In this document: positions 651 to 10,921 of the stretch, in pieces
How positions within the stretch are numbered: position 1 is the first letter of the stretch
Layout: each line of letters starts with the position of its first letter
Assembly: GCA_015523485.1 (NCBI GenBank)
Contig: WAKH01000086.1
Location: 1-33,087 of the forward strand
Direction of reading: 5' to 3'
DNA length: 33,087 bases
Source: Thermodiscus sp.
GTDB lineage: Archaea; Thermoproteota; Thermoprotei_A; Sulfolobales; Acidilobaceae
The notes under the pieces: generated by a model
What the model saw: only the letters and a program-made list of their open reading frames with translations
Databases searched by the model: none
Told to the model about the DNA's origin: nothing
Program-made: the position numbers and the translations under genes

Positions 651-1904
651 TTGAAAGTGTATATAGCTGACCTGATAATCGGAGCATTCGCTTTCGATGA
701 AGATGGCAAACGGATTGACTATCAATTAGCTCCTAAAGATATGGACGAAGCCGTGGACCAGGCGATGAAGATAGAGGAAGGAGAGATATATGGCGCTCTA
801 GCCGAGCTCCTAGAGAGACTCTGTAAAGACAATCCCACAATAGTCGTGGAAGACGACTACATTGCCAGAGCAATATCGAGACTGGGCTTCGAAACAGTAG
901 TAGAGCCTGGAAACAAGATAGCAGTAAAAGCAAGGGAGAACATGGTCTCCCTAGCAATCGAGACAGGCTTCATGAAAGATGAGAAGGAATTCCTAGAATG
1001 GCTATTCGAGGCAGAACTTGAATATACAAGGAGAAAACTGAGGAAAGCCGCCCAGAAGAGAGACCTCCTAGCCGCACAAGCAATTAGAGCAATCGACGAC
1101 ATTGACAAGACCGTCAACCTATACGTAGCAAGACTAAGGGAGTGGTACAGCGTACACTTCCCAGAGTTAAATGACCTGGTGCGAGAACACGAGGACTACG
1201 TGAAGATCGTGGCAGAGCTAGGCCACAGGGCAAACATAACCAAAGACGCTTTAACAGGGCTGGGCTTCAGCGAGGAGAAAGCCAGGAAGATCGCGGAGGC
1301 GGCAGAGACCAGTATAGGAGCAGACCTATCAGAGTTCGACGTAGAAGCGGTAAGGACGCTAGCACGCATTGTATCAGAACTCTATAAGCTAAGGAGGAGA
1401 CTAACCGAATACATCGAACAGGTCATGAAGGAGGTTGCTCCGAACATCACAGCACTCGTAGGCCCCTTGCTAGGAGCAAGACTAATCAGTCTCGCGGGAA
1501 GCCTAGAAAAGCTAGCCCGCCTACCAGCAAGCACAATACAGGTCCTAGGAGCAGAGAAAGCCCTGTTCAGGGCATTAAGGACGGGAGGAAAGCCGCCAAA
1601 GCACGGCATCATATTCCAGTACCCAGACATCCACAGGAGTCCAAGATGGCAGAGAGGTAAAATTGCAAGAGCACTAGCCGCCAAGCTAGCCATAGCAGCT
1701 AAGGTAGACGCTTTCAGCGGAAGATTCATAGGAGACAAGCTCAGGGAAGAGCTTAGAAAGAGGATCGAAGAGATCAAGAGAGTATACGCTAAGCCACCTA
1801 AGAGGAAGCCCGAAGCCGCAAGGCCTGTTGCAAGACCACAGAGACCTAGAAGAGGTAAAGGTAGACGTCCAGGTAGAGGTGGTAGAAGGAGGAAGAGGAG
1901 GTGA
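651..1904 (+). CDS. nop5: C/D box RNP scaffold protein Nop5 (Nop56/58)
   Basis: Nop5 joins L7Ae-bound guide RNA to fibrillarin in the archaeal C/D box RNP, which 2'-O-methylates rRNA and tRNA. The 417-residue protein has the usual layout: a fibrillarin-binding N-terminal domain, a long coiled-coil middle, and the Nop domain around residues 235-345. The Nop domain holds the hallmark stretches ALVGPLLGARLI, PASTIQVLGAEKALFRAL and KHGIIFQYP. The last ~40 residues are a Lys/Arg/Gly-rich tail common in hyperthermophile homologues. The TTG start is preceded by GGGGTG with 8-base spacing. A TATA-like stretch near 580-595 gives a likely promoter. The fibrillarin gene follows after 6 bases, so the two are co-transcribed. 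Confidence 0.96.
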   Translation: MKVYIADLIIGAFAFDEDGKRIDYQLAPKDMDEAVDQAMKIEEGEIYGALAELLERLCKDNPTIVVEDDYIARAISRLGFETVVEPGNKIAVKARENMVSLAIETGFMKDEKEFLEWLFEAELEYTRRKLRKAAQKRDLLAAQAIRAIDDIDKTVNLYVARLREWYSVHFPELNDLVREHEDYVKIVAELGHRANITKDALTGLGFSEEKARKIAEAAETSIGADLSEFDVEAVRTLARIVSELYKLRRRLTEYIEQVMKEVAPNITALVGPLLGARLISLAGSLEKLARLPASTIQVLGAEKALFRALRTGGKPPKHGIIFQYPDIHRSPRWQRGKIARALAAKLAIAAKVDAFSGRFIGDKLREELRKRIEEIKRVYAKPPKRKPEAARPVARPQRPRRGKGRRPGRGGRRRKRR

Positions 1905-1910
1905 TTGTGA

Positions 1911-2612
1911 ATGGAAGTAGTTAATGTAATGGAACACCCTAAGTGGAAGGGGGTCTACGTAGTCGAATTAGAAGACGGTAGCCTAAGGATAGCGACACGT
2001 AACCTCGTCCCTGGCCAGAGAGTATACGGAGAGAGACTATACCACTACGGCGGAGTAGAATATAGGGAATGGAACGCTTATCGCAGCAAGCTGGCAGGAG
2101 CCCTACTCAAAGGACTAGAGGAGCTGCCAATCAAGGAGGGCGATGCAATCCTATACCTTGGAATCGCAAGTGGAACGACCGCGAGCCACGTCAGCGACAT
2201 TATAGGGCCAGAGGGCAGGATCTATGGAGTAGAATTCGCCCCGAGAGTAATGCGAGACCTGATATTAGTGGTTAGAGAGAGGAAGAACATATACCCGATA
2301 CTCGGAGACGCCAGATTCCCCGAGAAATACAGGCACCTAGTCGAGGGAGTAGACGGCTTATACGCAGACGTAGCACAGCCAGAGCAGGCAGAGATAGTAG
2401 TGAGAAATGCTCAATTCTTCCTAAAAGACGGTGGCTACATGCTCCTCGCAATAAAGGCTAGGAGTATAGACGTTACAACCTCGCCCAGCGAAGTATACAA
2501 GGGTCAGATAGAGACTCTTATGAAGGCGGGTTTCGAGATAAAAGACGTAGTCCACCTCGACCCCTTCGACAGAGACCACGCAATGATATACGCTAGGTTC
2601 CGGAGAGGATAA
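1911..2612 (+). CDS. flpA: Fibrillarin-like rRNA/tRNA 2'-O-methyltransferase
   Basis: This is the SAM-dependent methyltransferase of the C/D box RNP. The 233-residue length matches archaeal fibrillarins. An N-terminal beta-domain (VYVVELEDGSLRIATRNLVPG, in part) is followed by the Rossmann fold with SAM motif I YLGIASGTTASHVSDIIG near residues 80-98, GVEFAPR (motif II) and the conserved YADVAQPEQ segment. The catalytic K-D-K-H residues of fibrillarins fit with LAIKARSID and the HLDPFDRDHAM region. GAGGTGATTG sits just before the ATG, inside the end of nop5. It forms an operon with nop5 and probably the DUF61 gene. Confidence 0.96.
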   Translation: MEVVNVMEHPKWKGVYVVELEDGSLRIATRNLVPGQRVYGERLYHYGGVEYREWNAYRSKLAGALLKGLEELPIKEGDAILYLGIASGTTASHVSDIIGPEGRIYGVEFAPRVMRDLILVVRERKNIYPILGDARFPEKYRHLVEGVDGLYADVAQPEQAEIVVRNAQFFLKDGGYMLLAIKARSIDVTTSPSEVYKGQIETLMKAGFEIKDVVHLDPFDRDHAMIYARFRRG

Positions 2613-4137: not shown

Positions 4138-4246
4138 GCCGGGGTGGCCGAGCGGTCTAAGGCGGCGGGCTGCAGTGGGGTACCGCCCTAATTGCCCATC
4201 GTGGAGACCCGTTTAATCCCGGGTTCGAATCCCGGCCCCGGCTCCA
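4138..4246 (+). tRNA. trnC: tRNA-Cys (GCA) with a 31-base intron
   Basis: The acceptor arm GCCGGGG (4138-4144) pairs with CCCCGGC (4236-4242), followed by T73 and an encoded CCA. U73 is the Cys discriminator. The D arm is GCC/GGC, the anticodon stem is GCGGG (4165-4169) with CCCGT (4208-4212), and the T arm is CCGGG-TTCGAAT-CCCGG. The loop reads C-T-GCA-G, then an intron of about 4176-4206 and A38, so the intron is at the canonical archaeal position 37/38. The exact splice points need the bulge-helix-bulge fold and could shift by a few bases. The variable loop is 6 bases by this pairing. Confidence 0.9.
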
Positions 4247-4295: not shown

Positions 4296-4428
4296 CCGGC
4301 CGTAGCTCAGCGGCAGAGCGCCCGGCTGTAGTGGGACACGGGCCGTGCGAGGGACCCCGTGCATGCATGAGGGTCCCTCGCCTGCAGAAACCGGGTGGTC
4401 CGGGGTTCGAATCCCCGCGGCCGGACCA
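4296..4428 (+). tRNA. trnY: tRNA-Tyr (GTA) with a 58-base intron
   Basis: The acceptor CCGGCCG (4296-4302) pairs with CGGCCGG (4418-4424), then A73 and an encoded CCA. The C1-G72 pair is the identity element of archaeal tRNA-Tyr. The D arm is GCTC/GAGC, the anticodon stem CCCGG (4321-4325) with CCGGG (4391-4395), and the T arm CGGGG-TTCGAAT-CCCCG. The loop C-T-GTA-G is interrupted after position 37 by an intron of about 4332-4389. The intron holds a perfect 11-bp hairpin, GCGAGGGACCC (4347-4357) with GGGTCCCTCGC (4371-4381), around a 13-base loop. Splicing is presumably by the archaeal bulge-helix-bulge endonuclease. Confidence 0.93.
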
Positions 4429-4491: not shown

Positions 4492-4563
4492 GCCGGGCCG
4501 TGATGAGAGGTGGGCTTAAATGAGCCTGTAAGGATGATTAGTGCGGTCGTATCTGAGCCTGGC
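4492..4563 (+). ncRNA. Candidate C/D box guide sRNA
   Basis: A canonical C box GTGATGA (4500-4506) and D box CTGA (4553-4556) are held by a terminal stem GCCGGGC (4492-4498) with GCCTGGC (4557-4563), seven pairs with one G-U. Internally, GGATGAT (4532-4538) can serve as C' and CTGT (4526-4529) or the TGA at 4521 as a degenerate D'. This leaves guide segments of roughly 12-14 bases before D' and before D (ending GCGGTCGTAT). The total of about 72 bases is slightly longer than the archaeal norm of 50-65. An AT-rich ATGATTTAGG at 4456-4465 is a possible promoter. The targets were not identified. Its 3' stem ends exactly at the last base of the convergent gene. Confidence 0.7.
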
Positions 4564-5120
4564 TAACCTAGGAATTCAGGCCTCATTCTGCCTCCGTCGT
4601 CATCGGAGGAAAGCTCTTCCACGATACTATCCACATATTCTCTGAACTCATCGAGTATCCCTAGTTCCTCGGCTCTTTCAAGGGCTATGGATGCCATCTT
4701 TATGGCATTGTCAAGGTGGGCCTCGTCAACCGATTTCGGCCAGTTCTTTAATGCCAACTCAAGGCCGTAGCTGGCCCTGTATAGAGGGGCAAGTATCCAG
4801 GCCTTAGTCTTATTGTCAAGCTTCGACCACGTGGGTGTGCATTGGAACAAGAATCCGGATTCTATCAGGCTCTTTGTCAATAAGATTTTGGCAGCTTCGG
4901 CCGAATCCACTACTTCAGCCGCAGTATTGAGCCTGACTAGCTCTATGACACTTGTTGGATCCTCGCAAATCCTCCTTCTCTTCTCGAGAAGGTACTCTTT
5001 CAAGTCCTCGTCAATCAGATTAAGATATTCTACAAGGATACTCTCCGCTTCCTCCAATGTATCAGTCCAGTAGATTTCCTGGATTACCTTCCTGAAAGCC
5101 TCGTTTACAGGGTCGGACAT
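4563..5120 (-). CDS. Helical protein of unknown function
   Basis: I do not recognise this ~185-residue protein. It is acidic and almost wholly alpha-helical by composition, with no membrane segment, no Cys pairs and no nucleotide-binding motif. Conserved-looking stretches are NEAFRKVIQEIYWTDTLEEA near the start and KAWILAPLYRASYGLELAL in the middle; the tail is Asp-rich. The ATG at 5120 is preferred because GGGGGAG lies 11-12 bases upstream; an in-frame GTG at 5147 would add nine residues and could be used if transcription starts at the TATA-like element near 5180. It follows the translin gene on the same strand after about 70 bases, so it may be a functional partner. That is context only. 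Confidence 0.75.
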   Translation of the reverse strand: MSDPVNEAFRKVIQEIYWTDTLEEAESILVEYLNLIDEDLKEYLLEKRRRICEDPTSVIELVRLNTAAEVVDSAEAAKILLTKSLIESGFLFQCTPTWSKLDNKTKAWILAPLYRASYGLELALKNWPKSVDEAHLDNAIKMASIALERAEELGILDEFREYVDSIVEELSSDDDGGRMRPEFLG

Positions 5121-5188
5121 CTCTTTTCCAGCTCCCCCGTAAGCCACTGAATCCAGTGGAGGTTAAATGGTGTAGGTAATTATACTGT

Positions 5189-8640: not shown

Positions 8641-10851
8641 TTGACTGAAACACCAAACGAAGAATTCAAGAAGGAAGTAGTCCTAAGAGTCGAAGAAGCG
8701 CGGAACAGAGACACTGGTAGGAAGAGGGTAAGAATCGATATCCAGACAATGAGGGAACTCGGCCTCAGGCCAGGCGATATTGTCGAAATAGAGGGGAAGA
8801 AGAAGACAGTGGCAATAGTATGGCCAGGGCTACCTGAAGATAATGGTAGAAACATCATAAGAATGGATGGAATCCTCAGGAAGAGTGCAGGCGTAAACGT
8901 GGGAGATAAGGTTATCGTAAGGAAAGCCGAAGTACAACCCGCAGTCAAGATTAAGCTTGCCCCAGTAAGCCAGTCATCAGTTATAGACGAGGGATTCAAG
9001 AGATACATAAAGAAGAGGCTCCTCGGAATCCCAGTTGTTGAGAGAGACATAATACAGATCCCAGTGCTAAGCCAAGGCATACCCTACACCGTAGTTGTAA
9101 CGAAGCCAAGGGGACCCGTCATTATAACTGAGAAGACTACTATCGAGGTGCTAAACAAGCCTCTCAGCCCAAGCCAAGTACCAAGAGTATTCTACGAGGA
9201 CATCGGTGGACTATCAAGCGTTATCGAGAGGGTCAGAGAGCTAATAGAGCTGCCACTGAGACATCCAGAGTTATTCGCTAGACTAGGCATCGAGCCGCCA
9301 AAGGGCGTCTTACTCTATGGCCCGCCAGGTACAGGCAAGACTCTACTGGCTAAGGCAGTAGCAACGGAAAGCGACGCATACTTCATCGCGATAAATGGTC
9401 CTGAGATTATGAGTAAGTTTTATGGTGAGAGTGAGCAGAGGCTTAGGGAGATTTTCAAGGAGGCTGAGGAGAATGCTCCAAGCATAATATTCATAGACGA
9501 AATAGACGCAATAGCACCAAAAAGAGATGAGGTCGCTGGAGAGGTAGAGAGGAGAGTAGTAGCACAGCTCCTAGCCCTAATGGACGGCTTGTCCACAAGG
9601 GGCCAAGTAATTGTAATAGCCGCAACCAACAGGCCAAACGCTCTAGACCCCGCGTTGAGAAGACCCGGTAGATTCGATAGAGAGATCGAAGTACCACTAC
9701 CAGACAAACAGGGTAGGCTAGAGATCTTGCAGATACACACGAGGCACATGCCACTAGCCGAAGACGTAGACTTAGAGATGCTTGCGGAAATAACAAAGGG
9801 ATACACTGGAGCAGACCTAGCGGCGCTAGTGAGAGAAGCCGCAATGCATGCACTGCGAAGATACCTCCCCGAAATAGACATTGAGGAGGAAAGGATACCC
9901 GTAGAAGTTCTCGAAAAGATGGTCGTAAAGATGGAGGACTTCATGGCGGCCTTCAAAGAAATAACACCAAGCGGTCTGAGAGAAATACAGGTTGAGATAC
10001 CCGAAGTAAGATGGGACGATATAGGAGGACTGAAAGAGGCCAAGATAGAACTAAGGGAGACTGTAGAGTGGCCGCTAAAGTACCCACACGCATTCGCCAG
10101 GCTAGGAGTCAAGCCGCCTAGAGGCATACTCCTCTTCGGCCCGCCAGGAACGGGCAAGACTCTGCTAGCTAAAGCAGTTGCAACAGAGAGTGGCGCCAAC
10201 TTCATCGCTGTAAGGGGACCCGAGGTACTAAGCAAGTGGGTAGGAGAAAGCGAGAAGATGATAAGAGAAATATTCAGAAAGGCCCGACAATACGCCCCAG
10301 CAGTAGTATTCTTCGACGAGATAGACGCTATAGCCTCGGTGAGGGGAACAGAGATAGGATCAAGAGTAGGAGAACGCATTGTAAGCCAGCTACTAACAGA
10401 GATAGACGGTATATCAGAGCTATCCGATGTAGTAGTGATAGCCGCAACCAACAGGCCAGACATCATCGACCCAGCACTCCTAAGGCCAGGACGGCTAGAG
10501 AAACTGATCTACGTACCACCGCCTGACATGGAGGGTAGACTGGAGATCCTACGAATACACACGAGAAACGTGCCACTGGGAGATGATGTAGACCTAGTAG
10601 AGATAGCCAAGAGGACAGAAGGATACACAGGAGCAGACTTAGCGGCGTTGGTAAGAGAGGCTGCAATGCTAGCATTAAGGGAGAGTCTAGAGGCAAAGTA
10701 CGTGGCTATGAGGCACTTCGAGGAAGCACTACTCAAGGTCAAGCCAAGTGTAACGGAGCAAATGATTGAATACTACAGGAGATGGCTAGAGTCAGCCAGG
10801 CAAATGAAGGTTGCAAGGAAGGCTCAGGCAGCTCCAACCCTGACATACTAG
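8641..10851 (+). CDS. cdc48: CDC48/VAT-type AAA+ ATPase
   Basis: The archaeal p97 homologue, a hexameric unfoldase acting in protein quality control, probably with the 20S proteasome. The 736 residues hold an N domain (double-psi barrel, to about residue 185) and two AAA modules. D1 has Walker A GPPGTGKT near residue 227 and Walker [16 protein letters not shown]2 has Walker A near residue 500 and [15 protein letters not shown], each followed by the second region of homology (AATNRP, RPGRFDR / RPGRLEK). All catalytic residues are intact. The TTG start has GGGGTGA 9 bases upstream. The C-terminus TLTY is not an obvious HbYX proteasome-docking motif. Codons between about 9403 and 9480 differ clearly from the rest. 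Confidence 0.96.
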
Positions 10852-10921
10852 AATCCATCCTCAATATTATCATCATATTTAGGTCCTGCAGCCTACATTC
10901 TTTCACAATGGGGTGGCGATA

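Follow-up and report, generated by a model that had tools for sequence, protein, structure and literature searches.

We identify the unannotated gap at positions 4492 to 4563 of the window (the whole 33,087-nucleotide stretch of Thermodiscus sp. DNA analysed here) as a C/D box sRNA gene on the forward strand; a closing stem encloses its two guides and all four boxes, C, D', C' and D. The sRNA is a real gene of a well-known kind, for which targets are now predicted, and it belongs to a wide family of orthologues. From the sequence comparisons, we consider it highly probable that the product is a double-guide RNA directing 2'-O-methylation of two nucleotides of 16S rRNA, G874 and G894. We observed the characteristic anatomy, conservation among relatives, pairing of both guides with the relatives' 16S rRNA, guide changes that keep this pairing, and covariation in the terminal stem and in the kink-turn.

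Anatomy and genomic surroundings

Read 5' to 3', the element runs GCCGGGC C GTGATGA GAGGTGGGCTTAA ATGA GCCTGTAAGGA TGATTA GTGCGGTCGTAT CTGA GCCTGGC (Table 1). The initial annotation had proposed a guide RNA with a C box, a D box and a 7-bp closing stem, and a base-by-base check bears out all three; one of the seven stem pairs is G.U. The D' and C' boxes, absent from that annotation, are degenerate in the Thermodiscus copy and were recognised through an alignment of 44 relatives. The 3' arm of the stem does end at the last base of the convergent gene, position 4563 being the final base of the stop codon of the ORF at 4563-5147. A search with the sRNA model recovers the Thermodiscus copy at G000:C86:4496-4560 (E 1.3e-15). 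The bare motif RTGATGA-N40-60-CTGA occurs twice in the window, compared with 0.67 times expected in shuffled sequence. Its second occurrence, at 10824-10876 on the reverse strand, overlaps the 3' terminus of a CDC48-like gene encoded opposite to it, and the count that includes it is near chance expectation.

Table 1. Location of the sRNA gene, its parts, neighbouring genes and swapped-order loci
Feature	Position	Strand	Remarks
Nop5, C/D particle core protein	651..1904	+	Pfam Nop, 264 bits
Fibrillarin/FlpA, C/D particle 2'-O-methyltransferase	1911..2612	+	Pfam Fibrillarin, 348 bits
tRNA-Cys with intron	about 4138-4246		upstream of the sRNA
tRNA-Tyr (GTA) with intron	4296..4428	+	lies upstream on the same strand; may be co-transcribed with the sRNA
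C/D box double-guide sRNA gene, whole element (putative)	4492..4563	+	sequence and 44-member alignment
Terminal stem, 5' arm GCCGGGC	4492..4498	+	pairs with 4557-4563; covaries in relatives
C box GTGATGA	4500..4506	+	sequence, alignment
D' guide GAGGTGGGCTTAA	4507..4519	+	pairs with 16S UUAAGCCCGCC; predicted Gm874 (E. coli numbering)
D' box ATGA	4520..4523	+	CTGA or CCGA in same-genus relatives
D'-C' spacer GCCTGTAAGGA	4524..4534	+	length and sequence vary among relatives; hairpin in several
C' box TGATTA, degenerate	4535..4540	+	recognised from alignment of 44 relatives
D guide GTGCGGTCGTAT	4541..4552	+	pairs with 16S UACGGCCGCA; predicted Gm894, helix 27
D box CTGA	4553..4556	+	sequence, alignment
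Terminal stem, 3' arm GCCTGGC	4557..4563	+	last base is last base of convergent gene's stop codon
Swapped-order loci	L201-L217, L221-L224, L232		families f2 and f3

Two tRNA genes had been placed upstream of the element, and these are tRNA-Cys and tRNA-Tyr, with introns of 31 nt and 58 nt, respectively; a default ARAGORN run missed both. The sRNA starts 63 nt downstream of tRNA-Tyr. tRNA-sRNA dicistrons are known in archaea (PMC7994747), and transcription of the sRNA could therefore be read-through from tRNA-Tyr; alternatively, it could start at an own promoter. Such a promoter would be needed in genus g13, where tRNA-Tyr points the opposite way. We rejected a general dependence of the sRNA on tRNA-Tyr: the two are neighbours in genera g1, g12 and g13 (divergently in g13), and ARAGORN, run with introns allowed, found no tRNA beside most of the orthologues outside these genera. 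The reported proximity to nop5-flpA holds as well, since Pfam confirms both genes within 651-2612; this closeness is real, and no tested result ties it to function.

Predicted targets in 16S rRNA

A search for 16S and 23S rRNA in the Thermodiscus assembly, an 88%-complete crenarchaeal MAG placed near Acidilobaceae, found neither. Because the organism's own 16S is not assembled, we read guide pairing on the 16S rRNA of relatives, including the sister species G004, which carries the sRNA and has the 16S target sequence. The best match anchored at the +5 position is TTAAGCCCGCC for the D' guide, with 11 pairs (10 Watson-Crick and one GU), and TACGGCCGCA for the D guide, with 10 pairs (nine Watson-Crick and one GU). 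Position 5 before the D' and D boxes forms a Watson-Crick pair in both cases, opposite G874 and G894 of E. coli 16S, respectively, and the two sites lie exactly 20 nt apart. When guides were shuffled, 9 of 20,000 pairs matched 16S within 100 nt at the same stringency. The initial annotation had argued from the rule of five that the D guide would target a G, and in the relatives' 16S this nucleotide is G894; the D' guide adds G874 as a second predicted target. The 16S genes of the same-genus genomes G001 and G004 (L119 and L120) are interrupted by intron-like insertions.

The proposal had been made to depend on a complement of nine or more bases to some stable RNA, and each guide forms at least 10 consecutive pairs with 16S. 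Each guide core contains one G.U, and no uninterrupted Watson-Crick run in the D guide reaches nine pairs. According to the main text of PMC4644070, nine consecutive Watson-Crick pairs are generally asked for, a demand relaxed for some double guides; the Thermodiscus guides, each with its G.U, fall in this relaxed class. The same main text describes helix 27 as a methylation hotspot in archaea and reports that archaeal double guides typically have both targets within 100 nt.

Orthologues and their distribution

We searched 48 genomes of the family with a pattern that required the C box and both guide cores, and obtained a match in five, compared with none for the reversed pattern. Over 424 bases, the G004 region shares 96% identity with that of Thermodiscus. 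In G002 and G003, an inverted tRNA-Cys flanks the sRNA on its opposite side, the order of tRNA-Tyr followed by the sRNA is kept, and the C box, D box and both guide cores are identical to those of the Thermodiscus copy. A model built from five sequences retrieved more orthologues throughout the order, and one built from 44 sequences extended the set to three families belonging to other orders. Across genera, the boxes and both guides are kept while the flanks are scrambled. The lack of conservation in relatives that would have counted against the element is thus not what we see, as dozens of genomes show conserved or covarying boxes, guides and stem.

The distribution also includes clear absences. 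At the locus itself, where it had been suggested that the boxes be looked for in related genomes, they are present in G004, G002 and G003 and absent from G001, a member of the same genus that is 95% complete. There, tRNA-Cys, tRNA-Tyr and the convergent gene are in place (L189, G001:C8:49300-50700) and the sRNA is missing; a model search of the whole G001 genome found no copy elsewhere. The complete relatives G001, G008 and G022 gave no match to the sRNA model, and an exact-pattern scan of viral contigs gave none either. We excluded one model match, in G013 (L181), which is without C/D anatomy. In genus g6 (L228-L230), the G874 guide is kept and its partner differs, perhaps being aimed at another 16S site (…GCATCG…).

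Guide variation and covariation

The way in which the sequence varies indicates that selection maintains the pairing. Among 14 distinct D guides, positions 2 to 11 before the D box vary only between C and T opposite G (GTGCGGTCGTA, GTGTGGCCGTA, GTGCGGCCGTA), with the sole exception of a G-to-A change at position 8 in two sequences; position 12, outside the duplex, and position 1, beside the box, vary freely. Variation in the D' guide is likewise mainly C/T opposite G, so that pairing with 16S is kept by both guides. The first two bases of the D' box vary, but 44 of 46 relatives keep its terminal GA precisely in the +5 register. In the terminal stem, the 44 relatives show 51 double-sided changes compared with 26 in shuffles, and the covariation score (0.457, against 0.174 in shuffles) is the best among slid registers. 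Base 5 of the C box and base 2 of the D box form U.U in 33 sequences, G-C in seven, G.U in three and U.C in one, related sequences being counted individually. In L162-L165, L167, L169 and L175, a C box RUGAGGA accompanies a D box CCGA, which amounts to an exchange of U.U for G-C inside the kink-turn. These patterns of guides, boxes, stem and kink-turn are the signature of a structured RNA that has another RNA as its target.

Alternative explanations

The strongest competitor to methylation of G874 and G894 is that the RNA is a C/D box sRNA in which one or both guides truly target 23S rRNA, a tRNA or another transcript, the 16S match being secondary. We regard this as unlikely. It draws on the central G.U that the D guide needs with 16S in its own genome, on an equally good match of the D guide in the 23S rRNA of genus g5 (10 pairs, nine of them Watson-Crick), and on a run of nine Watson-Crick pairs between the D' guide and the 23S record of G011. 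However, such matches of similar strength are confined to single genera and are not common to the family's 23S sequences, and the g5 genomes are without an sRNA match. The 16S matches of both guides, by contrast, lie 20 nt apart, and guide variants lose the G.U or shift it to another position opposite G at the same 16S site. A search of the Thermodiscus genome for the exact complement of the D guide found only the sRNA gene itself. Even less probable, in our estimate, is a role mainly as a folding chaperone for 16S helices 26 and 27, with methylation at one or neither site. Such a role has been proposed for archaeal double guides in the main text of PMC4644070, and it would sit well with family f5, where the base opposite G874 is U, giving a G.U at the critical position with pairing kept, and with members that keep the pairing although a D' or D box of theirs is degenerate or displaced by 1-2 nt. 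Against a pure chaperone stand the Watson-Crick C-G at position 5 at both sites in nearly all members and the kept box register, because pairing alone needs neither.

That the element is a chance resemblance in a spacer from which no RNA is made is scarcely credible. The bare motif on its own is weak evidence, with its expectation of 0.67 in a shuffled window, and G001 lacks the element at this locus; the comparative sequence evidence nevertheless lifts it beyond chance, through boxes and guides kept across genera amid scrambled flanks, pairing-preserving guide changes, and covariation of stem and kink-turn.

Proposed mode of action

In archaeal C/D particles, which contain L7Ae, Nop5 and fibrillarin, the guide RNA directs 2'-O-methylation by fibrillarin. 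The Thermodiscus genome encodes Nop5, fibrillarin and an L7Ae-family protein. We infer expression, particle assembly, methylation and a folding role for a double-guide sRNA that would act as follows. Transcribed alone or behind tRNA-Tyr, the RNA would fold through its C/D and C'/D' boxes into kink-turn or k-loop motifs to which L7Ae would bind, and Nop5 and fibrillarin would join the L7Ae-bound sRNA. The D' guide would then pair around G874, the D guide would do so 20 nt from there, around G894 of helix 27, and fibrillarin would methylate the 2'-OH of both nucleotides by the N-plus-five rule. The double pairing may in addition help this region of the 16S core to fold.

Comparison with known sRNAs

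Like the archaeal double guides in the main text of PMC4644070, the sRNA combines the same box layout with two guides about 12 nt long, whose targets on a single rRNA lie within 100 nt; the N-plus-five register and the helix 27 region of 16S as a hotspot are shared as well. That main text names no orthologue. An Rfam search found no family above threshold for the element. Its best match among archaeal C/D sRNA families, and that of L162, is sR44 of Pyrococcus (RF01129), which has the same C/D box layout. We do not assign the sRNA to RF01129, as the scores of 14.1 bits (window) and 27.6 bits (L162) are below the gathering score of 45 and the guide sequences differ. The sRNA family is absent from Rfam, and Rfam-based annotation therefore overlooks it everywhere in the order. 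In G036, L173 has at 1107-1158, about 400 bases away from the orthologue, a sub-threshold match to Rfam sR11 (28.8 bits against 39), perhaps another C/D sRNA.

Swapped guide order in two families

In families f2 and f3, the model matched with its second half ahead of its first. Of 22 such loci, 21 read out with the G894 guide leading and the G874 guide behind it, each guide being followed by a D-type box. The box order suggests which C/D pair would be the terminal one in the swapped form. The final box is displaced by 1-2 nt in three f3 genomes, G127, G128 and G132. A 16S tree unites families f2, f3 and f5 (97/98), and the guide order of f5 is the usual one; one or two swaps are therefore possible.

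It is tempting to hypothesize, tentatively and at somewhat short of even chances, that this guide family is older than the order, that the 874/894 pairing has been kept, and that at least one lineage underwent a circular permutation of the gene. The swapped order may also come from guides that re-evolved in new sRNAs. Circular permutation has a precedent, as the main text of PMC4644070 proposes a circular rearrangement that repositioned two guides, as in f2 and f3, for the M. kandleri sRNAs sR39/sR119/sR88. Those are paralogues of one species in which one guide has decayed, whereas about 20 genomes of f2 and f3 retain the two guides together with their two targets. If the hypothesis is true, it would suggest that circular sRNA forms, or particle symmetry, allow guide order to change while function is retained.

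Significance

While this kind of RNA is well known, conservation across many related archaea and the swapped order in two families are what our analysis adds. The orthologues form a well-populated set for studying how guides change and swap, how the kink-turn covaries and where the gene is cleanly absent, and an unannotated gap becomes a gene whose two predicted methylation sites in the core of 16S rRNA can be tested.
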